IMG/VR virus record: IMGVR_UViG_3300046834_000046
Location: 1 to 45,582 of that record
From: a virus
Reading direction: 5' to 3' (one strand)
Length of the DNA stretch: 45,582 nt
In this document: positions 26,589-45,582 of the stretch, one piece after another
Layout of the letters: every line of letters starts with the position of its first letter
Numbering within the stretch: the stretch's first letter is position 1
Notes under the pieces: model-generated
Databases searched by the model: none
What the model saw: only the letters and a program-made list of their open reading frames with translations
What the model was told of the DNA's origin: nothing
Program-made: the position numbers and the translations under genes

Positions 26589-26917
26589 GCCCGGTGGCGT
26601 GGACGTCGGTCGTCGCCCTCGTCGGGGCGCTGCTGGCGGCGATCACCGGCGCGTACGGCACGAGCCAGGCCCGCAAGACGCGCCTGGCGACCGTGGACAA
26701 GGACATCTTCGACGCGCTGCGGCAGGACTTCCTCGCCGCGAAGGCGGAGATCCGGGAACTGGAGCGGGAGAACGACCGTGAGCGGCAGCGGCGCCGCGAC
26801 CTGGAGGACTCCGTGCACCGGATCGCGCTGGCTCTGCACCGGCACGGCATCGAGATCCCGCCCGATGTCGCGACGCTGCTGCGGCCGCCCCCGAACACGG
26901 GGACGGGCGCGTCGTGA
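26585..26917 (+). CDS. membrane-anchored coiled-coil protein
   Basis: This 110-residue protein starts at GTG 26585 (GTGA overlap). A single N-terminal hydrophobic segment (VAWTSVVALVGALLAAITGAYG, residues 4-25) is followed by a long charged coiled coil (LAAKAEIRELERENDRERQRRRDLEDSVHRIALAL) and a Pro-rich tail. This resembles small holin-accessory or spanin-like proteins, but no lipobox or second spanin partner is obvious. It is the middle gene of a set of three overlapping membrane proteins just before the lysis genes. Confidence 0.65.
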   Translation: MSPVAWTSVVALVGALLAAITGAYGTSQARKTRLATVDKDIFDALRQDFLAAKAEIRELERENDRERQRRRDLEDSVHRIALALHRHGIEIPPDVATLLRPPPNTGTGAS

Positions 26918-27465
26918 AGGCGGCGCGGGTGCTGCCGTTCCGCCGGCCTAAGCAGGGCACGCCACCGGAGCCGGACTGCGAGCCGGAGCCGGGGCGGCGC
27001 CCGGACGCGACGGTGCCGATGTTCGCCGCCGCGTTCTGCCTCGGCATCGTCGTCGCGGCAGCTGGGCTGCTGGGCCTGCAGTCGGGCGACGGCGACACCG
27101 TCCCGGCCAGCGAGCACCAGGTGGTGGTCGAGCAGCGGGCCGCGGCGGAAGCAGCGGCAGCGGCGCGGCTAGCGGCGCTGGAGGACGCGGACGCGCTCGC
27201 CCGGCGTCTCGTCGCCGCGCTGGATTCCCCGCCGGTGACGGCGGCGGATCTGGCGGCGTTGCGGCGGGACGTGGCGACGCAGACGAAGACGGTCGAGAAG
27301 GTCCGCGTGGTGCGGGTCCCGGTGCCGGGGCCCGTCGTGACCGTCGCCCCGGTCGAGCGGCGCCAGCAGGCGCCGGCCAGGGCGTCCCGCGCGACCCCCG
27401 CACCGGCCGCTCCGGTCCAGAAGCCGTGCCAGCTCGAGCTGCTCGGCACCTGCCTGACCCGCTAG
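26914..27465 (+). CDS. single-pass membrane protein with Ala-rich coiled coil
   Basis: This 183-residue protein starts at GTG 26914. A basic, Pro-rich N-terminus (VLPFRRPKQG) precedes one transmembrane segment (MFAAAFCLGIVVAAAGLLGL, about 36-55). After this come an Ala-rich helix (VVEQRAAAEAAAAARLAALEDADALA) and a Pro/Val-rich extension (VRVVRVPVPGPVVTVAPVE), then a C-terminal CQLELLGTC pair that could form a disulfide outside the membrane. The topology would place most of it outside the cytoplasm. It could bridge to the cell wall in lysis or injection; function is not known. Confidence 0.65.
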   Translation: MKAARVLPFRRPKQGTPPEPDCEPEPGRRPDATVPMFAAAFCLGIVVAAAGLLGLQSGDGDTVPASEHQVVVEQRAAAEAAAAARLAALEDADALARRLVAALDSPPVTAADLAALRRDVATQTKTVEKVRVVRVPVPGPVVTVAPVERRQQAPARASRATPAPAAPVQKPCQLELLGTCLTR

Positions 27466-27782: not shown

Positions 27783-28224
27783 CGCGGTCGACGCTGACCT
27801 CGTCGACGCGATCGAGTCCCGCGGCTTCGTCCGCACCGAAACCGGGTGCCTCGAGTACCAGGGCTACCGCAACGAGCTCGGCTACGGGCTCATCCGCTGG
27901 GGCGAAGGCAGGGGACGCCTGATCCGCGTGCACCGGGTGATGTACGAGGCCCACGTCGGCCCGATCCCCGACGGGCTCGGCGTTCTCCACTCATGCGACA
28001 ACCCGCCGTGCGCCGAGCCGACGCACCTTCGGCCGGGCAGCCAGCTCGACAACGCCGCCGACCGGGACTCCCGCGGCCGGCACAACAAGGCGACGTGGAC
28101 GGCGTGCCCGAACGGCCATCCGTACCCGCCGGACCGGCCGCCGAAGGTCGACAAGAACCGGTGCCGCGAGTGCGCGAACGAGCGCAACCGCCGCTACCAG
28201 GCGAGGAGGCGGCAGCATGGTTAG
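27730..28224 (+). CDS. free-standing HNH homing-type endonuclease
   Basis: This 164-residue protein starts at ATG 27730. The HNH core is RLIRVHRVMYEAHVGPIPDG, then VLHSCDNPPCAEPTHLRPG with the conserved H-x-C-DNPPC-x-P-x-HL pattern, followed by ADRDSRGRHNKATW. A C-terminal zinc ribbon (CPNGHPY...CRECANERNRRYQARRR) gives extra DNA contact. This is the layout of phage HNH homing endonucleases that sit between genes. It overlaps the acidic gene upstream and the endolysin downstream, so it is an insertion squeezed into the lysis operon, possibly conferring marker exclusion. Confidence 0.87.
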   Translation: MTMTSTTATRTRPVLATSAVDADLVDAIESRGFVRTETGCLEYQGYRNELGYGLIRWGEGRGRLIRVHRVMYEAHVGPIPDGLGVLHSCDNPPCAEPTHLRPGSQLDNAADRDSRGRHNKATWTACPNGHPYPPDRPPKVDKNRCRECANERNRRYQARRRQHG

Positions 28225-28831
28225 GACCGCGGACGGCGGCCGGATCAAGCTGGCCGGCTCCCTGGACCGGCTCTTCGACGAGATCGATCAGGCGTGGCCG
28301 TCGCGGTCCCGGGTCTCTGATGGTTGGCGAGGCGATGCCGCCCATCAGGCGCGGAAGTCCGAGCACAACCCGGACGGCCGCGGGATCGTCCACGCCATCG
28401 ACATCACGACCGCGGGGATCGACAAGGCGCGGACGTTGAAGGCGCTGATCGGGCATCCGGCGGTCTGGTACGTCATCCACGACGGCCGGATCTGGTCGCG
28501 GACGTACGGGTGGAAGGCGCGGCGCTACACGGGCGCGAACCCGCACGCGCACCACATCCACGTCTCGATCCGCCTGGCCGCGGACGCGGAGCTGTGGGCC
28601 GGGAAGTGGCTCGGCGTCGCGCGGCGCCCGGCGGCTCGGGATCTGCACCGAGGTATGTCTGGCACGGACGTCGCGAAGTGGCAGCGAGCTCTCGGCGTCA
28701 CGGCGGACGGCCAGTTCGGCGCGAAGACGCAGGCCGCGGTGAACGCGTTCAAGGCCCGTCACGGGTGGGCCCAGGACGGCGTGATCGGGCCGCGGGTCCG
28801 CAAGGCCCTGCGGGAACGGGTCGGCTCGTGA
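28217..28831 (+). CDS. lysA: endolysin: M15-like peptidase plus peptidoglycan-binding domain
   Basis: This 204-residue protein starts at ATG 28217 after GAGGAGG. The N-terminal peptidase (about 30-130) carries SEHNPDGRGIVHAID (His50, Asp62) and NPHAHHIHVS, the S-x-H...D...H-x-H metal ligands of the M15/VanY D-Ala-D-Ala or L-Ala-D-Glu peptidase group. The C-terminal PG_binding_1 repeat (DLHRGMSGTDVAKWQRALGV...AVNAFKARHGW...IGPRVRKAL, about 143-200) binds the wall. No signal peptide is present, so a holin is needed for release; holin candidates follow directly. Confidence 0.9.
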   Translation: MVRTADGGRIKLAGSLDRLFDEIDQAWPSRSRVSDGWRGDAAHQARKSEHNPDGRGIVHAIDITTAGIDKARTLKALIGHPAVWYVIHDGRIWSRTYGWKARRYTGANPHAHHIHVSIRLAADAELWAGKWLGVARRPAARDLHRGMSGTDVAKWQRALGVTADGQFGAKTQAAVNAFKARHGWAQDGVIGPRVRKALRERVGS

Positions 28832-31424: not shown

Positions 31425-32189
31425 ATGGCCGGCACCTACAACCAGGCCGGGCTGACCTACAACGGGGCCGGGGCGACCTACAACGACTTCGACATCGGCG
31501 TCGCCCTCGCGGGCAGTGCGGCGGCGGCCGCCTCGGCGTCTGGTGCCCTGTCCCGGGCGCGGCCGCTCGCGGGGAGCAGCTCGGCCGCGAGCTCGGCCAG
31601 CGGGACCATGTCGGTCGCGCGGGGCGTGGCCGGGAAGGCCACCGCTGCCGCGGGTGCGACCGGTGCGGCGCGGGTCGCCCGGGCGTACGGCGGGAAGGCG
31701 ACCGCGGCCTCGTCGGCCGGCGCCACCCTGAAGTCCACGCGAGGGCTGGCAGGCAAGGCAACCGCAGTGTCGGGCGCGTCGGGAGATCTGTTCGTCGGCT
31801 CGGACGTGTTCCTCGCCGGGACCGCGCAGGCGGCAGCGGCGGCCCAGGGCGCTCTCGCGGCGGCGCGGCGGCTGTCGGGGTCCGCTGGCAGCGCGGCGTC
31901 CGTGTCGGGGCTCCTGCGCCTGGCCCGGCCCCTGCAGGGCACGGCCGCGGCGGCCGGGTCCGTCACCGGGACGCTGACCACCGGCCGCCCTCTGACCGGC
32001 AAAGCGACCGCGGCCTCGTCCGCGACCGCCGCCCTCACGGTCACGCACCCGGCGCGCGACATCACCGTCACCCTCGGCCCGATGCGGCACCGCCAGACCA
32101 CGGTCGGCGCCCCGTACGTCGTCCGGGAGCTCGCCCTCGCCGGACCTTCCGGCCGCACCAGCCTGTCCGTCTACGACCCGGAGACCTGA
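31425..32189 (+). CDS. Ala/Gly/Ser-repeat fibre-associated protein
   Basis: This 254-residue protein starts at ATG 31425. After a short Tyr-rich head (TYNQAGLTYNGAGATYND), about nine units of 18-22 residues follow. Each is built on the pattern L-x-G-x-A-x-A-x-S-x-A-x-G-x-L-x-x-R-x-L (for example VALAGSAAAAASASGALSRA, GLAGKATAVSGASGDL). The last 40 residues are a plain beta region with VGAPYVVRELALAGPSGR. This periodicity suggests a stack of beta-arches or a repeat spacer in a fibre. Similar Ala/Ser repeat proteins occur near actinophage fibre genes; the precise function is unknown. Confidence 0.7.
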   Translation: MAGTYNQAGLTYNGAGATYNDFDIGVALAGSAAAAASASGALSRARPLAGSSSAASSASGTMSVARGVAGKATAAAGATGAARVARAYGGKATAASSAGATLKSTRGLAGKATAVSGASGDLFVGSDVFLAGTAQAAAAAQGALAAARRLSGSAGSAASVSGLLRLARPLQGTAAAAGSVTGTLTTGRPLTGKATAASSATAALTVTHPARDITVTLGPMRHRQTTVGAPYVVRELALAGPSGRTSLSVYDPET

Positions 32190-32473
32190 TGCGCCTCGAC
32201 CGTGCAGGCCGCGAATACGTCCGCTGGCCGTTCACCTCCGACGCCGACCCCGCGCTGAGCGAGGTCGATGTGTGGCTGGCCGGCGCTTGGCACGACGCGA
32301 CCATCGAAGCCGGCGAGGACGGCCCGGAGGTCGTGCTCCTCGTCGCCGGCCCGGACGCGGACGACGAACCCTCCGCTGTTGTCCTGCCGCTGGGTGGGCA
32401 TGCGCCGCGGATCCGGTTCCCCGACAACCCGGAGGTCCTCGTCGAGACCGGCGGATTCATCGTCGTCGAATAG
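32189..32473 (+). CDS. small virion-associated hypothetical protein
   Basis: This 94-residue acidic protein starts at ATG 32189, overlapping the previous stop. RLDRAGREYVRWPFTSDADPALSEVDVWLAGAWHDATIE, then VLLVAGPDADD and IRFPDNPEVLVETGGFIVVE, form a beta-rich protein. It resembles a common final gene of actinophage fibre modules. It is the last rightward gene before the terminator. Function unknown, perhaps a fibre chaperone. Confidence 0.65.
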   Translation: MRLDRAGREYVRWPFTSDADPALSEVDVWLAGAWHDATIEAGEDGPEVVLLVAGPDADDEPSAVVLPLGGHAPRIRFPDNPEVLVETGGFIVVE

Positions 32474-32500
32474 CCGGCTCTTCGACCGGGCACAACGGAA

Positions 32501-32532
32501 GCGCCCCACCCGACACGCTTCGGGTGGGGCGC
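32501..32532. terminator. bidirectional terminator between late and lysogeny operons
   Basis: A perfect 12-bp stem, GCGCCCCACCCG (32501-32512) paired with CGGGTGGGGCGC (32521-32532), has an 8-nt loop and is followed by ATTTCC on the plus strand. It sits between convergent genes (stop of the rightward late operon at 32473 and stop of the leftward cassette at 32556), so it can serve both directions. Confidence 0.88.
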
Positions 32533-32555
32533 CATTTCCATGTCCTGAGGGGAGG

Positions 32556-33365
32556 TCAGGACGCGGGGGTCACCGGGCCGACCGGATCGGCCGGGTCGGT
32601 AGCCGGCGGGACCGTCGGCGCGGGGTCCTGGACCCATTCACCGGTGTCGGCCCATTTGCCGTTCGTGCAGGTCTCCTCGACCGTGCCCCACTTGGTGTTG
32701 CCTTCCTTGCCGCCGTCGGGCAGGTCGTGCCAGACGACGCGGGTCTCCCGGTGCATCCGGGTCGCGCCCTCGAACGCGGTCCCGGTCGCGGTCTTGCAGG
32801 TCACCACGGCCGGTTTCGGGTCCGCCTCGCAGTACGGGGACCCGGTGCCGGTGAGCTCGATGTGCTGCCCCGCAGGGCATTCGTCGCCGACGCACCCGGG
32901 CTGCTGACCGGGCAGGCCGGACTCGGAATCGGCGTACCAGTGAGCGCCGGACGGGCAGCTGTGGACCGGCTCCTCGGTCTCCGTGGCTTTGGTGGTGGGC
33001 TTGGGGGCAGCGATGGTGGACTCGGCCCGGTCGGCGGCGTCCTCCGCGCGGTCCGCTTCCCGCGCGGCGCGGTCGGCAGCTTCGGCCGCGGTCTCGCCGT
33101 CAACGGCCACGGCCGCAGGTGCGGTGTTCGTTGTGGGCTCGGGAGCATCCGCCGGCGGAATGCTCGCCGCCGCCGGGGTCGGAGTGCTGGTCGCGGTCGG
33201 CTCCGGAGCCGTCTCGTCCTCGTCGGCGACCTGGTGCACGGTGACCGGCGCTGGCGCCGGGGTCGAGCTGCTGGACATCGCGACCGCGCCACCCACCGCC
33301 CCACCGATCAGCGCGACGACGAGGACACCAGCGGCGGTGAACCCGCCCAGGTTCAGGCGCTTCAC
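32556..33365 (-). CDS. secreted or membrane-anchored protein with Cys-rich C-terminus
   Basis: This protein is 269 residues from GTG 33365, overlapping the upstream TGA. VKRLNLGGFTAAGVLVVALIGGAVGGAVAM is a basic N-region followed by a hydrophobic segment (about 8-29), a signal peptide or anchor. A Pro/Thr/Ala-rich linker and an Ala/Glu coiled coil (TAAEAADRAAREADRAEDAADRAE) follow. The C-terminal domain has CPSGAHWYADSESGLPGQQPGC, CPAGQHIELTGTGSPYC and CKTATGT, CTNGKW, and these Cys probably form disulfides outside the cell. It is the last gene of a leftward cassette near the prophage end. A surface or exclusion function is plausible. Confidence 0.65.
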   Translation of the reverse strand: MKRLNLGGFTAAGVLVVALIGGAVGGAVAMSSSSTPAPAPVTVHQVADEDETAPEPTATSTPTPAAASIPPADAPEPTTNTAPAAVAVDGETAAEAADRAAREADRAEDAADRAESTIAAPKPTTKATETEEPVHSCPSGAHWYADSESGLPGQQPGCVGDECPAGQHIELTGTGSPYCEADPKPAVVTCKTATGTAFEGATRMHRETRVVWHDLPDGGKEGNTKWGTVEETCTNGKWADTGEWVQDPAPTVPPATDPADPVGPVTPAS

Positions 33366-33865
33366 GACGACGCCCCGCAGTCGACGAGCCACTTGCCCTG
33401 CTCCTTGACCCACGTCTCGGCGTCCTTGCTGTCGTCCCGGAACAGCTGCGGCCACGTCTCCCGATCGCTGTCGGCCTCGGCGGGCAGGTCGAGGTGGTAC
33501 CCGGTGACGGTGCCCCGCTGGTCGTTCCAGGCGTTGGCGCCGTCGACTTTCCACGTGGTGCCGATCTCCTTGGCTTCCATGCTGGCGAAGCTCGCGCTCA
33601 TCGCGATGTCGATGGCGGGGCCGACGCCGGTGCATGTGGAGCCGAGGAAGGTCTTCGCCTGCTCCTTGTCGCCACCGGTCATGACGTCCGCGAAGGCCTG
33701 CGCGGCGGCGAGCAGCTCGTCGTCGGCGGACGGCGCGGCGGACGGCGCCGACGTTTCGACCGGCGCCGGTGCGGCGCCAGCTCGCTCCGTCGCCGCGGCG
33801 GTGCAGCCGGCGAGGCAGACGAGCATCCCCGCCGCGAACAACACGCGGAGCTGCAGCCGCTTCAC
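33362..33865 (-). CDS. lipoprotein
   Basis: This 167-residue protein starts at GTG 33865 (GTGA overlap). VKRLQLRVLFAAGMLVCLAGC has a clear lipobox, LAGC, with the modified Cys at residue 21. A Pro/Ser/Ala-rich linker is followed by a compact domain (ADDELLAAAQAFADVMTGGDKEQAKTFL through YHLDLPAEADSD and WLVDCGASS) with a likely disulfide. It resembles small secreted domains found in actinobacterial lipoproteins. It lies in a leftward operon with two other exported proteins. It may block superinfection at the membrane, by analogy with phage lipoproteins; inferred. Confidence 0.65.
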   Translation of the reverse strand: MKRLQLRVLFAAGMLVCLAGCTAAATERAGAAPAPVETSAPSAAPSADDELLAAAQAFADVMTGGDKEQAKTFLGSTCTGVGPAIDIAMSASFASMEAKEIGTTWKVDGANAWNDQRGTVTGYHLDLPAEADSDRETWPQLFRDDSKDAETWVKEQGKWLVDCGASS

Positions 33866-34116
33866 GACTCGCTCGCGAACGCCGCACGGAGCATCTGATC
33901 GATGACCTTGTCGCCGATGGCCGCGACTTCGGCCTTGGACAGCCCGTCGCACTGGGCCGGCAGCTTTGCGCCAGTCAGATCCTGGCCTGCAACGGCAAGG
34001 ACGTAGATCCTGCGGGCGGCGTCTTCGCACGCCGCTGTTTGCTCCATATGGCTGGTGCACCCGGCCAGGCCGGCCAGGACGACGGCGCTGGCGGCGGCCG
34101 CGATGGTGCGCTTCAC
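33862..34116 (-). CDS. small lipoprotein
   Basis: This protein is 84 residues from GTG 34116 with GGGGGGA upstream. VKRTIAAAASAVVLAGLAGC has a lipobox LAGC with Cys20. The mature part is about 64 residues with two more Cys and helices (CEDAARRIYVLAVAG, DKVIDQMLRAAFASES). It starts GTGAAGCG like the next two genes of the cassette. An upstream in-frame start at 34185 lacks a ribosome-binding site. Small prophage lipoproteins often give superinfection exclusion; here that is only an inference. Confidence 0.65.
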   Translation of the reverse strand: MKRTIAAAASAVVLAGLAGCTSHMEQTAACEDAARRIYVLAVAGQDLTGAKLPAQCDGLSKAEVAAIGDKVIDQMLRAAFASES

Positions 34117-34215
34117 GATGTGGTCCCCCCACGTTGGTGTTGCTTCGGATGTGACGCGCCCGCCTCCCCGACGGTTGCGCTCCAACTGGTCATCTGGCTT
34201 TCCAGATGCTGCGGG

Positions 34216-34452
34216 TCAGCCGTTCGGCTGATGCGGGTCACATCGCAGCGGGCATTCCCAGCGCCCGATGACGTACCACCGTTCCGGGTAGTCGCAGGTC
34301 TCGGTCACCTCGAGCCATTCCGCGCGGACCCGGGTCTTCCCACAGGCCGGACAACCCGGCAGGTCGAGGGCGGCCACCTGGCTGCCGTTCAGCCGACCGT
34401 CGGGCAGGCCGACGATCAGCAGCGACTTCGGGTCGATCGTCAGGTCAGTCAC
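34216..34452 (-). CDS. small zinc-ribbon protein
   Basis: This 78-residue protein starts at GTG 34452 (overlap with the upstream gene). LLIVGLPDGRLNGSQVAALDLPGCPACGKTRVRAEWLEVTETCDY then WECPLRCDP gives a Cys4-type ribbon (CPAC...CPLRC). It is the third of three tiny overlapping genes transcribed leftward from just beyond attP. A 99-bp gap follows before the lipoprotein set. Function unknown. Confidence 0.6.
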   Translation of the reverse strand: MTDLTIDPKSLLIVGLPDGRLNGSQVAALDLPGCPACGKTRVRAEWLEVTETCDYPERWYVIGRWECPLRCDPHQPNG

Positions 34453-34576
34453 GGTCGCCCGTCGCGTCGCAGTCCTCGTCCGGTGTGCCCGTGCACGTCC
34501 ACTGGCTGTCGAACCCCCAGATGATTTCGTGGCGCGGATGCTTGCGCTGGTGCTCACGCGCGGAGTCGCCGGTCAT
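34445..34576 (-). CDS. 43-residue hypothetical protein
   Basis: The ATG at 34576 overlaps the preceding TGA (ATGA), and the frame ends at 34445 in overlap with the next gene. The protein MTGDSAREHQRKHPRHEIIW...CTGTPDEDCDATGD has a His-rich N-terminus and two Cys, possibly a partial metal site. Supported mainly by the two overlaps. No function. Confidence 0.5.
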   Translation of the reverse strand: MTGDSAREHQRKHPRHEIIWGFDSQWTCTGTPDEDCDATGDRD

Positions 34577-34713
34577 GCGCGGCATGCTTCCACCCGCACC
34601 GCGCAGGCGTCGACGTCGCGGCACACCCACTGGGCGGGGCCGCCGGTGATCTCCGCGGCCCGGTACCGGACGAGGTCGCCCCGGGCCCCGCACACGCAGC
34701 ACGACCGGCTCAC
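34573..34713 (-). CDS. 46-residue zinc-ribbon protein, first gene of the leftward cassette
   Basis: This starts at GTG 34713 with CTGAGGAG a few bases upstream. It reads VSRSCCVCGARGDLVRYRAAEI then CRDVDACAVRVEACRA; the CxxC pair and later Cys suggest zinc binding. It lies immediately downstream of the operator-like motif at 34728-34744, which would overlap its promoter and leader. In the integrated prophage this gene would lie at one extreme end. Confidence 0.6.
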   Translation of the reverse strand: MSRSCCVCGARGDLVRYRAAEITGGPAQWVCRDVDACAVRVEACRA

Positions 34714-34727
34714 GACGCTCCTCAGTT

Positions 34728-34744
34728 GGTGAGATTTAGTGAGG
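34728..34744 (+). promoter_or_regulatory. operator-like motif, copy 1 (GGTGAGATTTAGTGAGG)
   Basis: This matches 15 of 17 bases of copy 2 (36934-36950) and shares the core GTGAGATTTAGTG with copy 3 (minus strand of 37481-37493). It lies 15-31 bp upstream of the start codon of the first gene of the leftward cassette. Binding by the repressor encoded at 36958 is inferred. Confidence 0.65.
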
Positions 34745-34758
34745 CCACGATAGATCGC

Positions 34759-34777
34759 GTGTGGGCTCTGTGTGGGA
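34759..34777 (+). promoter_or_regulatory. candidate integrase arm-type site, left
   Basis: The motif GTGTGGGCTCTGTGTGGG occurs in the same orientation at 34977-34994 with two differences. The pair flanks the tRNA-like core at similar distances. Such direct-repeat arm sites are what lambda-type integrases bind through their N-terminal domain. Confidence 0.5.
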
Positions 34778-34873
34778 AGAACCGTTGACACCAGCGGATC
34801 CGGTGGACACCAGTGGACACCTTCGCGCAGGTCAGCCGCCGGGTCGCCCCGCTGACCTGGGCCTCTGGAATGT

Positions 34874-34915
34874 CTTCTAAGCAGCCGGTCGCAGGTTCGA
34901 GTCCTGCCGGGCGCG
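34874..34915 (+). other. attP: attP core: 3' half of tRNA-Arg (anticodon TCT)
   Basis: From CTTCTAA (34874-34880: anticodon loop with TCT) the sequence continues through an anticodon-stem strand, a 5-bp T-stem GCAGG/CCTGC around TTCGAGT, and a 3' acceptor strand CGGGCGC ending at 34915. There is no matching 5' half upstream, so it is not a functional tRNA. It is the tRNA fragment that regenerates the host tRNA-Arg(UCU) gene on integration. It lies 23 bp from the integrase stop codon, the usual arrangement. Confidence 0.85.
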
Positions 34916-34937
34916 CCCCACTGACCAGGGCGGATGC

Positions 34938-36176
34938 TCATTTCAAGCCCTCCGTCGAGGCGCCACCGACGGCCTCGTGTGGGAACTGTGTGGGCAGGAT
35001 CCGCGCCCACACGTCGAGGACCGCCTTGTGTGCGTCCGGGGCGAGGTGCGCGTAGCGCATCGTCGTCGCGTACGACTCGTGCCCGAGCAGCTTCTGCACC
35101 ACCAGCAGGTCCATCCCAGCCTGGACCAGCCAGCTCGCCGCGGTGTGCCGCATGGTGTGCGGGGTGTACGGCGGCAGCTGGTGCCCGGCGTCGCGGCACT
35201 GCCCCTTGGCGTCGCGGCACGTGCCCGTGATCGGGCACGTCCGGGTGCGTTTCAGCGCGGCGTCCCATACCGATCGGAACCGGTCCCCGTCGAGCGGACG
35301 GCCGTCGGCGTCGACGAACACGGCGCGGCCGTGCGCCCGGCCGCGGATGCTCATGACCGGGTGGGTGGTGTCGCGGGCGAGCGCGGCCAGCCTGGCGCGC
35401 AGGTGCGGCGGGGTCGGCACCGTGCGCCGCGACCGCTTCGACTTTGGGTGCTCGCGAAGCGATCCGTCGTCCTCGACGACGTACTGGACGTGGACCAGGC
35501 CGTGGAGCTCGTCGACGCAGCTGTCGAGCAGACCGGCCAGCTCGCCCCACCGCAGCCCGGTGAGTACCGCGTACTCGACGAGGGTGGCGTACGGCTCGGC
35601 GAGCTCGGCGGTGAAGGCCCGCGCCTGGTCGGCGGTGAAGAACACGACGGGGCCGATCGGCGCCGGCGGGAGCTCGCGCAGGACGCCGCGGCAAGGGTTG
35701 CGCCCGGTGAGGATCGGCGGGTCCTCATCGATCGCGGACTGCAGCAGCATCGACAGGACACCGACGGCCTGCTGCACAGTACGGATGCCCCCACCGGCCG
35801 CGACGAGCCCCGCGGCCCACCCGGCGACCTCGGTACGGGTGACCTCGTCGAGAGCGACCTCCCCCCACCGCGGTTGCACGTGCAACCGCCAGACCTGCTC
35901 GTTGCGCTCACGGGTCTTGCGCGCCTTCGCGCTGCGGGTCGCCCACCACTTCGGGTGCCATTGCGCCACCGTCATCTTGGCGTCGCGCGGGTCGCGCCAC
36001 CGGCCGCGGCGTACGTCGGTGGACAGCTCCTTCGCCCACGCGTCGACGACACGCTTGAGCGGGTCGGTCCGGGTGACCCGCCGCCCGTTAGGGAGCTCGA
36101 CCTCCGCGCGCCAGAGGCCGGTCCACCGTTTCCCGCCCGGTACCGCGGGGTCTTTGGCCATCACCTTGTAGGCCAT
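34938..36176 (-). CDS. int: tyrosine integrase
   Basis: This 412-residue protein starts at ATG 36176. N-terminal AMKVMAKDP-type arm-binding strands and DPRDAKMTVAQWHPKW begin it. A SAM-like core-binding domain (RKTRERNEQVWRLHVQPRWG, about 85-110) follows. The catalytic domain has TGLRWGEL (first Arg), the HTMRHTAA box (H-x-x-R), LLGHESYATTMRYAH with final His and nucleophilic Tyr. A Cys cluster (CPITGTCRDAKGQC) just before HTMRH is an unusual insert, perhaps zinc-binding. It inserts the genome at the tRNA-Arg gene using the attP beside it; the small excisionase-like protein at 37758 may direct excision. Confidence 0.95.
   Translation of the reverse strand: MAYKVMAKDPAVPGGKRWTGLWRAEVELPNGRRVTRTDPLKRVVDAWAKELSTDVRRGRWRDPRDAKMTVAQWHPKWWATRSAKARKTRERNEQVWRLHVQPRWGEVALDEVTRTEVAGWAAGLVAAGGGIRTVQQAVGVLSMLLQSAIDEDPPILTGRNPCRGVLRELPPAPIGPVVFFTADQARAFTAELAEPYATLVEYAVLTGLRWGELAGLLDSCVDELHGLVHVQYVVEDDGSLREHPKSKRSRRTVPTPPHLRARLAALARDTTHPVMSIRGRAHGRAVFVDADGRPLDGDRFRSVWDAALKRTRTCPITGTCRDAKGQCRDAGHQLPPYTPHTMRHTAASWLVQAGMDLLVVQKLLGHESYATTMRYAHLAPDAHKAVLDVWARILPTQFPHEAVGGASTEGLK
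34977..34994 (+). promoter_or_regulatory. candidate integrase arm-type site, right
   Basis: GTGTGGGAACTGTGTGGG repeats the left site with two changes, and lies inside the 3' end of the integrase gene. A single half-site CTGTGTGGG recurs at 36552-36560 upstream of the HTH gene. Confidence 0.45.
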
Positions 36177-36182
36177 CAGGGC

Positions 36183-36527
36183 TCACCTGCTGCGGCGGGC
36201 CTGTTCGGCGACGGCGAGGAGCATCCGGCGGGCGTCCGGGGACAGGTCGTGCCAGAGCTCGCGGAGGCGGGTGAGGTCCGGGTCCTCGCGCAGCAGCGGC
36301 CGCAGCCCGGCGCGGACTCGTTCGGAGGAGCCGGGCTCCCACCCGAGCGCGGCCTCGATCGCGGCCAGGCTTTCCTCGGAGATGTTGGTCCGCTCGCCGC
36401 GTTCGATGGCGCCGAGCAGCCGCACGGACAGCCCGCATTCGGCGGCGAAGTCCGGGCGGCGCGGCCAGCGCCGGGACCGTTCGGTGAGGATGCGCTTCCC
36501 GAGCCGCACCCACCCCTCTTCGGACAC
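36183..36527 (-). CDS. XRE-type HTH regulator
   Basis: This is 114 residues from GTG 36527. The N-terminal LGKRILTERSRRWPRRPDFAAECGLSVRLLGAIERGERTNISEESLAAIEAALGW (about 9-64) is a five-helix XRE/Cro domain with an ERG turn. The C-terminal 50 residues are acidic helices (LREDPDLTRLRELWHDLSPDA), perhaps for dimerisation. It is 6 bp upstream of int on the same strand, so they are probably co-transcribed. It may control int, or act as a second lysis-lysogeny switch. It likely starts without a leader: TAACTA is 7-12 bp before GTG. Confidence 0.75.
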   Translation of the reverse strand: MSEEGWVRLGKRILTERSRRWPRRPDFAAECGLSVRLLGAIERGERTNISEESLAAIEAALGWEPGSSERVRAGLRPLLREDPDLTRLRELWHDLSPDARRMLLAVAEQARRSR

Positions 36528-36533
36528 ATCAGG

Positions 36534-36539
36534 TAGTTA
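36534..36539 (-). promoter_or_regulatory. -10-like TAACTA before the HTH-int operon
   Basis: TAACTA on the minus strand sits at -12 to -7 relative to GTG 36527, so transcription would begin at or next to the start codon, giving a leaderless message. No convincing -35 is seen, which is common in actinobacteria. The half arm-site CTGTGTGGG lies just upstream at 36552-36560. Confidence 0.4.
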
Positions 36540-36609
36540 AGCGGCCACGTGCTGTGTGGGATCTGGGGCAGCGCGGCCCTGCCTGCTATTGCCTCAGCAA
36601 AGGGCAACA

Positions 36610-36843
36610 TCAGGCATCCCGGTCGCTGGAAGCATGCCGTTCGCCAGCGCTGTACGCGTACTGCAAGGCAGCTTCGAGCAGCGGTCGGAGAGTGATAACG
36701 GCCGCCCAGATGGAGGCGGTGACCGCGCCGGCCAGGACGGTCCGGCGCGCGGCTTCGGTAGAGGGGTCGATCAGCAGCCAGAAGAAGGTGCCGATCCAGA
36801 GGACGAGAGCTAAGCGATTCCAGGTGTTGCTGACCAGTCGCAC
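36610..36843 (-). CDS. small membrane protein in the immunity region
   Basis: This protein is 77 residues from GTG 36843 with AGGGGGG nine bases upstream; a TTG at 36930 would add 29 residues. It has two hydrophobic segments, LALVLWIGTFFWLLI (about 10-24) and VLAGAVTASIWAAVITLR (about 36-53), then a charged tail ending SAGERHASSDRDA. It is leftward, between the repressor and HTH genes, and so expressed in lysogeny. Superinfection-exclusion membrane proteins are often found at this position; inferred only. Confidence 0.6.
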   Translation of the reverse strand: MRLVSNTWNRLALVLWIGTFFWLLIDPSTEAARRTVLAGAVTASIWAAVITLRPLLEAALQYAYSAGERHASSDRDA

Positions 36844-36933
36844 GGTGGGCGACCCCCCTCGGGACTTGCGTCGATGGGTGGGCGGGTCCGGGGCCGAGTT
36901 AACCGAACCGGAAGGTTTCCCGGGAAGCAATCT

Positions 36934-36950
36934 GGTGGGATTTGGTGAGG
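36934..36950 (+). promoter_or_regulatory. operator-like motif, copy 2 (GGTGGGATTTGGTGAGG)
   Basis: It lies in the 114-bp interval between the repressor stop (36958) and the start of the membrane gene (36843), so it could block or permit leftward transcription of downstream lysogeny genes. It matches copy 1 at 15 of 17 bases. Confidence 0.6.
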
Positions 36951-36957
36951 TTTCCCC

Positions 36958-37356
36958 CTAATGGGGGGGTATCAGGTACAGGTCTGGCGAGACGCCGAGG
37001 AGTCGCAGCAGGCCCCGCTTCTCGTCCTCACCTAGGACCGGGTCCTCGGTGATCACCGCTGCGATCCGCTCTCGGTTCGCGCGCGTCAGCTTCGCGAGGG
37101 GCTTGGGCTCGTCGGGGAGGTAGGACGGCAGCTCGCCGGCCAGGACCCGGGGGATGGAGTCGGGAGTCCAGCGGTAGAACTTCGCGAGCTGCCACAGCTT
37201 GTCGGGCGGGTCGCGATGAACCTTGCCGCCCTCGTAGACCTGGATCATCGTCGCGCTGACGCCGGACAGCTCCTCGATGGCCTGCCGAGATCTTCCGCCG
37301 CGTTCTGAGCGCAGGCAGTGACCGAGGTGCGTCCAGTCGCCGTCCTCACTCTTCAC
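36958..37356 (-). CDS. probable prophage repressor (XRE-type HTH)
   Basis: This is 132 residues from GTG 37356. Residues about 10-65 form the DNA-binding domain: LGHCLRSERGGRSRQAIEELSGVSATMIQVYEGGKVHRDPPDKLWQLAKFYRW, where ATMIQVYE is the recognition helix. The C-terminal half (LTRANRERIAAVITEDPVLGEDEKRGLLRLL) is helical; no autoprotease Ala-Gly and Ser/Lys motif is present, so it is not a LexA/cI-type cleavable repressor. It is divergent from the Cro-like gene at 37507, the usual immunity switch. The three operator-like motifs in this region are its likely targets. Confidence 0.78.
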   Translation of the reverse strand: MKSEDGDWTHLGHCLRSERGGRSRQAIEELSGVSATMIQVYEGGKVHRDPPDKLWQLAKFYRWTPDSIPRVLAGELPSYLPDEPKPLAKLTRANRERIAAVITEDPVLGEDEKRGLLRLLGVSPDLYLIPPH

Positions 37357-37364
37357 AACTAGTC

Positions 37365-37370
37365 AAGTTA
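37365..37370 (-). promoter_or_regulatory. -10-like TAACTT of the repressor gene
   Basis: TAACTT on the minus strand is 9-14 bp upstream of GTG 37356, and no ribosome-binding site is present. This again suggests leaderless transcription. A clear -35 is not visible. Confidence 0.4.
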
Positions 37371-37406
37371 CGCGGGATCTGGTGGCAAGCCAGTAGCCAC
37401 ACGGCC

Positions 37407-37423
37407 CATTTGGCGGCCAAATG
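37407..37423. promoter_or_regulatory. palindrome CATTTGG-CGG-CCAAATG between divergent regulators
   Basis: The inverted repeat is perfect: seven-base arms, three-base centre. It lies about 37-53 bp from the repressor's -10 and about 84-100 bp from the Cro-like start, in the control region between the two divergent genes. It differs from the GTGAGATTTAGTG motif, so it could be the binding site of the Cro-like protein or of another regulator. Confidence 0.55.
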
Positions 37424-37470
37424 ACTACCCACAGTGTCCACTCAGGCACGACCTCGGGCCGCGGGAGGGC

Positions 37471-37499
37471 TTGCGTGAGCCACTAAATCTCACTAAATT
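37471..37499 (+). promoter_or_regulatory. rightward early promoter with operator copy 3 in the spacer
   Basis: A -35 TTGCGT (37471-37476), a 17-bp spacer and a -10 TAAATT (37494-37499) place the start of transcription near 37506. This is beside the ATG at 37507, so the message would be leaderless. The operator core CACTAAATCTCAC (37481-37493, the reverse complement of GTGAGATTTAGTG) fills the spacer. A bound repressor would block RNA polymerase completely. Confidence 0.65.
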
Positions 37500-37506
37500 C
37501 CGGCAC

Positions 37507-37758
37507 ATGTCGATGACGCCCGCCTACTCTCACCACAAGCTGCGGCGGGCACGTCTCGTTGCGGGACGCACGATCGAGGAACTCGCGCAAGCGGCCGGGC
37601 TCTCCGGCGGAGCGCTGTACCGGATCGAGGCCGGCACGAAGCTCGGGCCCCGCCCGACCACGGTCGCCGCCCTGGCCGCCGCGCTCGGCCGGCCGATCGA
37701 GGACTTCCTCAACGACGAAGCCGGCAAGGAAGTCCGCAACGAAGACGACGTCGCCTGA
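37507..37758 (+). CDS. Cro-like XRE HTH protein, first early gene
   Basis: This is 83 residues from ATG 37507 (ATG 37513 also in frame). LRRARLVAGRTIEELAQAAGLSGGALYRIEAGTKLGPRPTTVAALAAALG (about 12-61) is a standard XRE fold with recognition helix GGALYRIEAG. It is too short for a sensor domain, matching Cro-type antirepressors. It is divergent from the repressor and the first gene transcribed rightward from a promoter carrying the operator motif. Its product probably shuts off the repressor during lytic growth. Overlaps the excisionase gene by one base. Confidence 0.8.
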   Translation: MSMTPAYSHHKLRRARLVAGRTIEELAQAAGLSGGALYRIEAGTKLGPRPTTVAALAAALGRPIEDFLNDEAGKEVRNEDDVA

Positions 37759-37961
37759 TGGCCACGGTTCGCCAGGTGATGCTGCGGGTCTCGCAGGTCG
37801 CCACGATGCTCGACTGCTCGCGACAGCACGTGTACGACCTCATCGCCGCCGGCGACCTGGCCGCCGTGAACATCGCGCTGAGCGGGACCCGGGCGCAGAC
37901 CCGTATCCACTTGGACGAGATCGAGCGCTACATCAAGGCCAACACCCGGCGCGCCGGGTAA
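37758..37961 (+). CDS. excisionase-like MerR/HTH_17 protein
   Basis: This is 67 residues from ATG 37758 on a TGATG junction. LRVSQVATMLDCSRQHVYDLIAAGDLAAV is the DNA-binding motif of the excisionase/MerR small HTH family: helix, Ser-Arg-x-His-Val-Tyr recognition helix, then a basic wing (RAQTRIHLDEIERYIKAN). It follows the Cro-like gene in the early rightward operon, a common place for xis. It would bend attachment-site DNA for excision with integrase. It could also act only as a transcription factor. Confidence 0.7.
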   Translation: MATVRQVMLRVSQVATMLDCSRQHVYDLIAAGDLAAVNIALSGTRAQTRIHLDEIERYIKANTRRAG

Positions 37962-38143
37962 TGGCCGACACCGCGGGGCCGTCCCACCGTGCCCTCCCCC
38001 AGTCCGCGTCCCCGCCGGCCGTGCCCGGCGCGCTTGCCTTGGTCCGTGGGTGCGCCCTGGCGTCCCGGACGGCGGGGACGCGACCCATCGGACTGCTCGC
38101 CCGGTTCCTCGGCGCCGACGGCGGCCCTGCGCGCTGGCCCTGA
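37961..38143 (+). CDS. 60-residue hypothetical protein
   Basis: The ATG at 37961 overlaps the previous TAA (TAATG). The product is Ala/Pro/Arg-rich without a motif (SPPAVPGALALVRGCALASRTAG) and ends just before a terminator hairpin. Position supports coding, composition does not add much. Function unknown. Confidence 0.4.
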   Translation: MADTAGPSHRALPQSASPPAVPGALALVRGCALASRTAGTRPIGLLARFLGADGGPARWP

Positions 38144-38151
38144 CGTACCGC

Positions 38152-38184
38152 GGCCGGTCCCGCGTGCCGACGCGGGGACCGGCC
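38152..38184 (+). terminator. terminator-like hairpin after the early switch genes
   Basis: GGCCGGTCCC (38152-38161) pairs with GGGACCGGCC (38175-38184), extended by GCGT/ACGC over a GCCG loop with one bulged G. A stem this strong next to the switch genes suggests a point where early transcription is stopped or attenuated, before the recombination genes. The 67 bp that follow, up to 38251, hold no gene; a TTGCCG (38197-38202) is -35-like but no good -10 follows. Confidence 0.7.
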
Positions 38185-38251
38185 TGGGAGGCGGCATTGC
38201 CGACTTCCCGATCTTCGCATCTGAATCTGACGGTCCGCCAGGGAGGCGCAC

Positions 38252-38569
38252 GTGCAGCAGAAACAGACCCTCCATGATTTCGGCGACCGGGTCGCGGGGC
38301 AGGTCCTCGACGCGAGTGAGTGGATGCGTGACCGGGTCCGCCCTGCTGTCCCGGCACGGCATGTGGTCGGTGAGGTGTCGTGCGTGTTCCCGCACGCGCC
38401 GGAGATCGTGGAGGTCCGGCTCGGGTCCGGGGTGACGGTGCTGGTCGCCGTCGGCGGGGTGCGTTGCGACGAGGGGTGCGCTCATCCGCCTCATGCGCCG
38501 GGGGATTGCCTGGCGGGGACGCTCACCGAAGACGGCCTATCCAGCTACTGCACCTGTGGTTCCGAGTGA
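38252..38569 (+). CDS. hypothetical protein with C-terminal Cys cluster
   Basis: This is 105 residues from GTG 38252 with AGGGAGG upstream. The N-terminus is helical (FGDRVAGQVLDASEWMRD). A beta part VGEVSCVFPHAPEIVEVRLGSGVTVLVAVGGV follows. The last 30 residues hold CDEGCAHPPHAPGDC and CTCGSE, a possible zinc site. It opens the recombination operon; function unknown. Confidence 0.6.
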   Translation: MQQKQTLHDFGDRVAGQVLDASEWMRDRVRPAVPARHVVGEVSCVFPHAPEIVEVRLGSGVTVLVAVGGVRCDEGCAHPPHAPGDCLAGTLTEDGLSSYCTCGSE

Positions 38570-38784
38570 GGCCGCGGTGGGAGGACGGCACCAGCGGCCG
38601 CCCGCTCGGCGACGACGAGGACCTAGACCCGTACGTGCCTGGTGATCTGAGCCCGGACTACGGCGACTTCTACGACGAGATGACCGCGGAGGAGCGGAAG
38701 GCCGCGGCCCGCGGGGTCGTGCCCCGGTTCACCCGGCCGCGGCCGGTCGGGCGTGACGGGTTCCCCGAGGACCAGCAGCCATGA
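38566..38784 (+). CDS. small acidic hypothetical protein
   Basis: This 72-residue protein starts at GTG 38566 (GTGA overlap). The centre is very acidic (LGDDEDLDPYVPGDLSPDYGDFYDEMTAEE), the C-terminus basic and Pro-rich (RFTRPRPVGRDG). It resembles small acidic proteins next to recombination genes. It overlaps the exonuclease gene by ATGA. No specific function. Confidence 0.6.
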   Translation: MRPRWEDGTSGRPLGDDEDLDPYVPGDLSPDYGDFYDEMTAEERKAAARGVVPRFTRPRPVGRDGFPEDQQP

Positions 38785-43547: not shown

Positions 43548-43773
43548 CACCCCGTCACCCGCCCCGCTGCCCGAGCTGGGGTACCCGGCGTACCGCTGCC
43601 CGTTCTGCCACGAACCCGGCACCTGGCGCCTCGACCGGTACGGCGACGCCGTCGCGTCATGGTCCTGCGAGCTGCACCTCGCCTGGGTCATGGACTCCCT
43701 GCAACGCGAAGGTGAAGTGACCCGGGTGACCGTGTACCGCTCCGCGCACCACCGCGAAGGAGCCGGCCGATGA
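43537..43773 (+). CDS. small zinc-ribbon-like protein (intact form of the gene cut by position 1)
   Basis: This is 78 residues from GTG 43537. LGYPAYRCPFCHEPGTWRLDRYGDAVASWSCELH has two Cys pairs in a ribbon-like arrangement; the downstream part LAWVMDSLQREGEVTRVTVYRS is shared with the left-end fragment (3-131). It overlaps the next ATG by ATGA. Unknown role. Confidence 0.65.
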   Translation: MSPDTPSPAPLPELGYPAYRCPFCHEPGTWRLDRYGDAVASWSCELHLAWVMDSLQREGEVTRVTVYRSAHHREGAGR

Positions 43774-45347
43774 CCGCGGACCTGCGCGACCAGATCGCCG
43801 TCTCGCTGCGGCTGGCCTTCCCCGGCGCCCCGCGGGAGAACGTCGAGGCCATTGCCGACGCCGTCATGCCCGTGGTCGCCGCCGCCCGCAAGCACCTGGC
43901 TGACCGTCTCGCCGCCTGCAACCGTGACCTCGTCCACACCGCCGGCGCCCGGGCGGAACTGGCCGAACGCCTCGACGCAGCCGAAGCCCGGATCACCGCC
44001 GCGCTCGCGGTACTCGAACCCGGCAACGACTGCAGCTACGGGTACGGCGACGGTGAGCCCGGCTGCGCCTGCGACAAGTGCCGCGTCCGCGCCGCGCTGC
44101 GAGGCGTCAACCCCTACGGTGCAGCGCCATCACCCGCAGCGCACGCCTACGTCCCGCCCCCGGCCGGGTGGGCGATCGCGAACTTCTGGCCGCCGCCGTG
44201 CAGCGCGGAGGTCGACAGCGCGGTTCTCCCCGGCCTGCGTGATGCCTGCCGCCGGCCCGAGTCCGACCCGATCCACATCGCAGCGGAGACCCTGGCCGAC
44301 CACGCCTTCGAGGCGTCCAACCTGGCCGACCGCTGCGGGTTCCACGTCGTCTACTCCGACGGCATCGGGGAGTTCTGCACCCGCAGGTCCGCCGACGCGA
44401 GACACACGATGGCCGCCGTCCGGACGGGTGCGGGATCAGCGGCCCCGGCGCCAACCCCACCCGCCGCGTACGAATGGAACTGGGCGCCGATCCACACGTT
44501 CGACCCGTGGCCGAAGCGACCGGACCTCTGCAAGTTCTGGATCGGCCCGCACACCGACGACGGCAACCACTGCTGGGGACGCGCCGACGACCCGAAGCAC
44601 GCAGCGGGCCCCGCAACCCCGGAACCCGACACCGCACCCACATCTTTCGTTCAGCGTCACCGGGACGGATCGGCGTGCACTGCGGGAGGGCTCTGCTCCG
44701 ACGAGCACCCCGCAGCGGGCGTCGGTCACCTCGGCGTCGATGACGACGACTGCGACCGGAAGGGCTGCGTGTGCTCGGTTGACGATGGCCCCGACGTCGA
44801 ACACCTGCGGCTCCCCGACGGCCGATGCGTCATCAGCCTCGCCGGCCAAGGCCACCTCCCGTGCAACGCACACCCCGCAGCGGGCGGGGGCACGAACGTG
44901 GACACCGCAGCGATCCGGGAGATCGTCTGCCAGTGGCGCGACATGGTCCTCGGCGGGGGGACGGCGGTTAACGCGCAGTACGCACGGCGGAGCGTCCTCG
45001 CCCTCGCCGACGCCCTCGACGCCGCGGAGGCCCACGTCGCCGCCCTCACTGCCGACCTCGCCCAGTGGAAGGCCCGAGGCTGGGCCACCACCTACGAACT
45101 GACCGCGTGGAAGCACGACATCGGCGAGCACAAAGACAGTGAGCACCCCTACGCCTACTGCCCCCGCTGCGAGATCGAGCACCCCGCCGGACGGCTCGCC
45201 CAGGTCAAGGCCGAGCTGGCAGCGGCGAAGGCCACCATCGAATGGATCCATGACGGCGCCAGCGGTGCGCGGCTCTGCGGTGACTGCAAGATCAACCTCC
45301 GCGCCGCCCTCACCCCCCAGGCCCCCACCGCCGGCGGTGCGTCGTGA
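43770..45347 (+). CDS. 525-residue modular Cys/His-rich protein (long allele)
   Basis: The protein starts at ATG 43770. The N-terminal ADLRDQIAVSLRLAFPGAP, the DRLAACNRDLVHTAG segment and the C-terminus (GRLAQVKAELAAAKATIEW...AALTPQAPTAGGAS) match the 151-residue protein at 128-583. In between lies an insertion of about 370 residues with many Cys and His: CSYGYGDGEPGCACDKC, CGFHVVYSDGIGEFC, HCWGRADDPKHAAG, and repeated EHPAAG/AHPAAG segments near CSDEHPAAG. These look like several small metal-binding modules in series. It may be a fast-evolving recognition or regulatory protein; no family is known to me. Confidence 0.7.
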   Translation: MTADLRDQIAVSLRLAFPGAPRENVEAIADAVMPVVAAARKHLADRLAACNRDLVHTAGARAELAERLDAAEARITAALAVLEPGNDCSYGYGDGEPGCACDKCRVRAALRGVNPYGAAPSPAAHAYVPPPAGWAIANFWPPPCSAEVDSAVLPGLRDACRRPESDPIHIAAETLADHAFEASNLADRCGFHVVYSDGIGEFCTRRSADARHTMAAVRTGAGSAAPAPTPPAAYEWNWAPIHTFDPWPKRPDLCKFWIGPHTDDGNHCWGRADDPKHAAGPATPEPDTAPTSFVQRHRDGSACTAGGLCSDEHPAAGVGHLGVDDDDCDRKGCVCSVDDGPDVEHLRLPDGRCVISLAGQGHLPCNAHPAAGGGTNVDTAAIREIVCQWRDMVLGGGTAVNAQYARRSVLALADALDAAEAHVAALTADLAQWKARGWATTYELTAWKHDIGEHKDSEHPYAYCPRCEIEHPAGRLAQVKAELAAAKATIEWIHDGASGARLCGDCKINLRAALTPQAPTAGGAS

Positions 45348-45582
45348 GGGAACCCTTCGGGCGCCTCATGGAACTCGTCGCGCAGATCGACCCCGAAAGC
45401 CAGATCACCCTCGGCCAGCTCGCCGAACTGTGGGGCGAGCCCGTCGCCCGGATCTCCGACGCGATCGACGCCGTCAAGGTCTGCAACGGCGAACCGTCGT
45501 ACATCGCCCTCCCCCAGGCCCCCGGCGACGACACCACCGGAGAAACGCCCGCCACCACCCCCGGGGGGCCCGGCGGCGGCCC
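45344..45582 (+). CDS. HTH-like gene, 3'-truncated at window end
   Basis: GTG 45344 opens the same frame as 580-855; the first about 72 residues are almost identical (one silent base change near the start). After about 45562 the sequence no longer matches the left copy and the gene runs off the end. This is the right half of the end duplication. Confidence 0.75.
   Translation, partial: MREPFGRLMELVAQIDPESQITLGQLAELWGEPVARISDAIDAVKVCNGEPSYIALPQAPGDDTTGETPATTPGGPGGG

Follow-up and report, generated by a model that had tools for sequence, protein, structure and literature searches.

Mycobacterium abscessus prophages have leftward cassettes of exported proteins that lie inside attR, have variable C-termini and are active in the lysogen (PMC8092301). 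For Ltp, a superinfection-exclusion protein of Streptococcus thermophilus phage TP-J34, the gene is adjacent to int and the lipoprotein that it encodes prevents DNA entry; integrase-side exported genes elsewhere are also expressed in lysogens (PMC3952083). For actinophages, a prophage membrane protein of Charlie that excludes DNA injection has been described, as well as the prophage-expressed membrane exclusion proteins of CarolAnn (gp43/44) and Sbash (PMC6426606). Finally, gp41 of a Cutibacterium acnes phage, an Ltp-like protein with a signal and an outer domain, is proposed for superinfection resistance (PMC11480721). Here, we analysed a window corresponding to the entire virus record IMGVR_UViG_3300046834_000046 (45582 bases, G+C about 72%). 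It carries a leftward cassette of six genes, bounded by attP and the late-operon stem-loop, that encodes three tiny proteins, two lipoproteins (lipoproteins 1 and 2) and a larger anchored protein, P3 (Table 1). We consider with moderate confidence that the cassette is an accessory operon (moron, lysogenic-conversion type) of a temperate actinophage. By analogy with the systems above, superinfection exclusion would be its likeliest use. Lysogenic-conversion cassettes are already known; what is new is a constant frame with exchanged outer domains.

This frame was recognized by comparing the records that contain P3. One of 36 related records or genomes had a P3 homologue (IMGVR_UViG_3300048596_000042, hereafter L101; 58% over residues 1-136). 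A P3 profile scan of viral_contigs returned three loci, that of L101's record and two others, L153 and L155, and a second profile scan gave the identical three records. The order common to all four P3 records is integrase, tiny gene ending PNG*, leader, exported gene or genes, and P3. Between L101 and L153, identity amounts to 97% over the 60 bases that lead up to the exported gene; it is 35% in the first 60 bases of this gene and 31% in its last 45 bases, and returns to 92% in the first 60 bases of P3. Between L101 and L155, the leader is 95% identical and the signal part of the lipoprotein 90% identical over 90 bases, with 33% identity in the last 45 bases before P3. As judged from these alignments, the exchange has sharp borders, at start codons and just past the signal and linker, and affects either the entire exported cargo gene or its mature domain alone. 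Exchange while the neighbours stay is a mark of morons, and here the cargo varies between P3 and a leader that is conserved in the three relatives. The frame conserved in relatives also rules out chance open reading frames.

The window cargo consists of two lipoproteins. The L155 cargo is a lipoprotein without family, and that of L101 is a lipoprotein with an Rv1352/Rv1906c secreted domain (NF053833, 5.3e-30). L153 has a transmembrane-anchored protein; its outer domain is found again in L138, another related phage, where it adjoins the integrase (46% over 69 amino acids). In lipoprotein 2, the signal and linker can be aligned with their counterparts in L101 and L155. Lipoprotein 2 matched two of the 36 related records over its first 60-70 residues only, and its mature part is without known relative beyond the signal and linker. 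Exchange extends to the tiny gene: it is Cys-rich in the window and encodes a ribbon-helix-helix protein in L155 (PF01402, 1.1e-6), and L101 and L153 share a protein without family of weight. Only the PNG* end is constant among these tiny genes. P3 itself is made of an N-terminal anchor, a Pro/Thr/Ala stalk, a heptad-like EAADRAxxEADRAExAADRAE segment and a Cys-containing C-terminal part.

On the basis of the sequences, the conserved frame with its exchanged cargo suggests a slot for altering the surface of infected bacteria, possibly excluding other phages. In a lysogen, the cassette would adjoin attR and would be transcribed there. Lipoproteins 1 and 2 would be placed, together with the anchored stalk protein P3, on the outer face of the membrane, where the variable mature domains might affect arriving phages, either as they adsorb or as their DNA enters the cell, or might change the lysogen surface in some other way. 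We only infer lysogenic expression, export and the surface effect. More tentatively, the cassette could be a surface-display slot, a possibility that we regard as open to serious doubt. The P3 stalk and the signal and leader segments would then be constant, and phages would plug in differing outer-face effectors. Joints would serve as recombination borders, the proposed ones being the PNG* stop, the start codon, the linker end and the stop/start joint [AG]TGAAGCG before P3. By swapping one mature domain, lysogens would shift their exclusion specificity. No description of such a frame with exchanged cargo was found in the literature searched, most subscription journals being outside reach. Superinfection-exclusion proteins have mostly been met singly, and a constant-frame slot would allow candidate exclusion or surface-conversion proteins to be collected from sequence alone. 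This would be useful in high-GC actinobacteria, where few such proteins are known. Moreover, sharp swap points past a kept signal sequence show directly that phage surface proteins have been put together from modules.

Among cultured phages, the nearest relative that was found is Arthrobacter phage Hum25 (terminase 67%), which offers a further comparison. Hum25 genes 27-33 are also leftward, with the late operon on one side and a tyrosine integrase on the other. At the slot, with matching place and strand, gene 27 (PQ244012 20152-22092, -) encodes an acyltransferase (PF01757, 3.6e-29) with a GDSL part, which may modify the lysogen surface. The Hum25 set differs from the cassette by having this acyltransferase, instead of lipoproteins, at the late-operon side. 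An acyltransferase in this slot would also suit surface proteins that serve lysogen fitness (nutrient, envelope stress, attachment) rather than exclusion, with secreted domains of host type having been borrowed. The actinobacterial secreted domain Rv1352/Rv1906c in one cargo and the occurrence of lipoprotein 1 relatives in 2 of 394 host genomes point the same way. However, rapid exchange at a single place suits an arms race no less well, and lipoproteins 1, 2 and P3 matched no metabolic family. Overall, we regard a fitness role as possible but unlikely.

The original prediction had attributed the three identical gene starts to duplication or to assembly of signal-bearing modules. As it had stated, the three proteins are predicted to be exported, with signals in all three and the lipobox LAGC in two. 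The octamer GTGAAGCG occurs six times in the window as compared to 1.8 expected (standard deviation 1.3), a number reached in 2 of 100 shuffles, and three of the six copies are the starts of lipoprotein 1, lipoprotein 2 and P3. The 11-mer GTCGTGAAGCG has two matches, solely at the joints of lipoprotein 2 with lipoprotein 1 and with P3 (0.06 expected; two reached in none of 100 shuffles). At the starts of lipoprotein 2 and P3, GTGA is forced by the 4-base stop/start overlap. The octamer is partly this overlap plus a Lys-Arg signal start. Past the octamer, lipoprotein 2 and P3 are 64% alike over codons 4-17, a likeness that 5000 codon shuffles never equalled. Lipoprotein 1 has no such likeness to either protein (p 0.91 and 0.15). 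Therefore, two of the three exported proteins bear out the idea of signal-bearing modules, and a single origin shared by all three starts is not supported. The idea of modules also agrees with the relatives, which keep the leader and signal and change the mature part. Across the four cassettes, seven of nine exported genes start with ATGAAGCG or GTGAAGCG, the exceptions being both L153 genes. Signal-like proteins starting with Lys-Arg were 0 of 99 in 20 stretches of one bacterial genome, a count that is biased by the most-upstream-start filter and was not used as a test. An earlier, stricter lipoprotein filter passed 1 of 311 genes and was replaced by a looser one.

These starts bear on the possibility that the cassette is no more than a usual series of unknown genes, whose starts are alike only through the stop/start overlap and a Lys-Arg signal start that they have in common. 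The forced GTGA at two joints and the lack of further likeness in lipoprotein 1 would be accounted for in this way, but the likeness between lipoprotein 2 and P3 extends past the octamer. As the swap data, with a conserved frame and precise exchanges in relatives, had already weakened this explanation, we hold it to be distinctly improbable.

An accessory operon is also consistent with the position of the cassette, on the strand of the integrase and repressor-like genes and opposite to the late operon. The leftward six-gene set had been placed at 34713-32556, and both coordinates and strand were correct. Stop/start overlaps are found at four of the five gene joints, the sole exception being the 34216/34116 joint, which corresponds to the 99-base leader. 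The cassette reads toward a stem-loop, and the late operon (+) stops at 32473 on the other side. This stem-loop had been described as a 12-bp-stem terminator isolating the set. A strong stem toward the late operon is indeed present, folding at -34 kcal/mol (z -6.5 on the + strand and -5.0 on the - strand), with 13 bp instead of 12. Because it has no T-run and is not listed by the terminator scan, it can be called only a presumptive terminator. Of the three relatives, L101 and L155 have a similar stem-loop, which L153 has lost (fold z 0.18). In L153, a gene after P3 (5642-6160, -), by eye HNH/endonuclease VII-like, occupies the expected place of the right arm of the stem.

We also considered accessory lysis or envelope-disrupting proteins, that is, a spanin-like pair for the thick actinobacterial envelope. 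Overlapping genes for a lipoprotein and an anchored protein resemble a two-component pair, and the N-terminal part of lipoprotein 2 weakly matches Rz-like spanin families (E 0.042 and 0.12). However, these matches are limited to the signal and linker (residues 6-55 and 7-44) and do not cover the whole protein. The cassette is on the strand opposite to the endolysin operon (gene at 28217-28831, +), with the strong stem in between. In addition, most actinobacteria have no Gram-negative outer membrane. Such a role therefore seems very unlikely.

Like the toxin/immunity cassettes at attR in M. abscessus, the window cassette is leftward and exported and has variable C-terminal parts, here on what is presumed to be the attR side (PMC8092301). 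The M. abscessus cassettes described there combine type VII (WXG-100) export with toxins, whereas the window cassette has Sec/lipoprotein signals and no toxin domain. That it would encode orphan immunity proteins, or partners in a system for an exported toxin, is thus a far-fetched explanation: its place matches (leftward, inside attR) and some immunity proteins in M. abscessus are predicted lipoproteins (PMC8092301), but no WXG-100 or toxin domain was detected in the Pfam scan of tiny genes 1 and 3, both lipoproteins and P3.

Superinfection exclusion is the use to which the other described systems point. As with Ltp, a lipoprotein gene lies near int on the integrase strand, and a lipid anchor, here predicted from the lipobox, is combined with a low-complexity spacer and an outer-face domain (PMC3952083). 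The window set differs from Ltp in being multi-gene, with an anchored partner and swapped cargo, in being separated from the integrase by attP and in having no Ltp family match in Pfam. The mature parts have net charges of -13 for lipoprotein 2, -25 for P3 and -3 for lipoprotein 1, and of -15 to -16 for three lipoprotein 1 relatives. These acidic parts recall the acidic Ltp surface, the charges being given without a control set of other proteins. With Charlie, CarolAnn and Sbash, compared by description only, the cassette shares the character of actinophage lysogeny genes for membrane proteins, theirs stopping other phages (PMC6426606). It differs from them by consisting of lipoproteins plus one single-anchor stalk protein. 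Similarly, gp41, also compared by description only, is an actinobacterial phage protein with a signal and an outer domain (PMC11480721). However, gp41 is a single gene associated with pseudolysogeny, in contrast with the multi-gene set of the window.

Several observations weigh against an accessory operon used for superinfection exclusion. The attP and its arms separate the integrase from the cassette, so that read-through from the integrase cannot drive the cassette in a lysogen, and a promoter scan of 32000-38600 gave no sigma-70-like promoter. PADLOC gave no match of weight to defence families. A Pfam scan at E 1 gave no Ltp family among the cassette proteins scanned, and Pfam includes an Ltp family. 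P3 was not found in 35 of the 36 related records at E 0.1 and is known from four records in all. Finally, the third-codon-position G+C content (GC3) is not foreign: 0.84 for lipoprotein 1, 0.94 for lipoprotein 2 and 0.88 for P3, as compared to a mean of 0.90 (standard deviation 0.03) for phage genes, the reference being 28 hand-picked genes. Foreign base composition as a proof of transfer was therefore rejected, GC3 being ordinary for the phage. A composition unlike that of the phage is a frequent but not obligatory mark of morons. Homologues known as virion proteins, which would have contradicted the prediction, were not found in PHROGs or Pfam for the five cassette proteins scanned (all except tiny gene 2).

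Table 1. Features of the cassette and of the adjacent attachment region in the window.
Feature	Coordinates	Strand	Remarks
Stem-loop	32501..32532	.	13 perfect bp (32501-32513 / 32520-32532), between convergent late operon and cassette
P3, 269 aa	32556..33365	-	N-terminal hydrophobic segment / membrane anchor; last cassette gene, conserved
Lipoprotein 2, 167 aa	33362..33865	-	lipobox LAGC
Lipoprotein 1, 84 aa	33862..34116	-	lipobox LAGC
Leader, 99 bases	34117..34215	-	ahead of exported genes; palindrome and GGGGGG ribosome-site stretch
Tiny gene 3, 78 aa	34216..34452	-	CxxC pairs, ends PNG*; no family in Pfam/PHROGs
Tiny gene 2, 43 aa	34445..34576	-	46 aa with start at 34585; ATG overlaps gene 1 stop
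Tiny gene 1, 46 aa	34573..34713	-	Cys pairs (CxxC); no Pfam/PHROG match of weight
Arm-type repeat	34758..34779	+	19/22 bases equal to 34976-34997
attP core	34874..34918	+	3' half of tRNA-Arg gene (anticodon TCT)
Tyrosine integrase	34938..36176	-	PF00589 1.5e-23; phrog_1 2.7e-62
Arm-type repeat	34976..34997	+	opposite side of core
Helix-turn-helix protein	36183..36527	-	upstream of integrase, repressor-like

Among 394 genomes of the class, two contain the attP core sequence with two mismatches, each time as the 3' portion of a tRNA-Arg(TCT) gene. The 22-base repeat flanks the core on both sides in the manner of integrase arm sites. A search of viral_contigs with the integrase gave no match. From the gene order, the cassette would lie, after integration, beside the attachment site at the end distal to the integrase. 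The original prediction had located it at a prophage end; it adjoins attP within a whole free phage genome and would form a prophage end only once integrated. The carrier of the cassette is a temperate actinophage, and relatives of its terminase occur in Micromonosporaceae, Streptosporangiaceae and other actinobacterial contigs, and also at 66 viral loci. In related records G014 (L115 15410-16027, +) and G005, an anchored exported-looking protein is encoded near the integrase, on the strand opposite to it. No clear counterpart of an exported protein was seen near the integrase in G004 and G036.

Single-sequence searches of viral_contigs with lipoprotein 2 and P3 gave no match, and neither did tblastn against phages. 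The two proteins had no match in the 394 genomes either, a null that carries no weight without a known positive. The structure model of lipoprotein 2 (mean predicted local distance difference test score, pLDDT, 47) was set aside. Lipoprotein 1 has relatives at six viral loci, and remoter ones in the 2 of 394 genomes already mentioned. It is modelled as a two-helix hairpin (pLDDT 78.7), Cys30 and Cys56 being conserved in the family. This model had no match among viral folds at E 0.001, and no match against phages was obtained with lipoprotein 1 or its L144 relative. When 200 genomes were searched with a two-row alignment of lipoprotein 1, the one weak match (8.8e-4) was by eye a different kind of lipoprotein and was dropped. 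At the viral loci with callable surrounding genes, lipoprotein 1 relatives stand alone, antisense within head-tail operons. In L144, an Arc-like gene (689-832; PF03869, 4.8e-10) overlaps that of an acidic small lipoprotein (829-1065), forming a two-gene antisense unit in a head-tail operon that is a candidate self-regulated moron.

In the leader before lipoprotein 1, a palindrome, CATCTGG-aaag-CCAGATG (34191-34208), could be an operator or a hairpin; leaders of the relatives have AACCAGTGGTT instead. tRNA genes or known RNAs inside the cassette were rejected on scan. The ends of the record are alike with gaps (1-156 / 43643-43798, 95%; 369-807 / 45168-45572, 85%). This imperfect likeness fits an unintegrated genome assembled from mixed strains, and the record may form a circle assembled from two strains or carry a duplicated gene. 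Outside the cassette, ARAGORN called a tRNA-Trp at 27130-27218 (-), antisense to a late reading frame (26914-27465, +), which is probably a false call.
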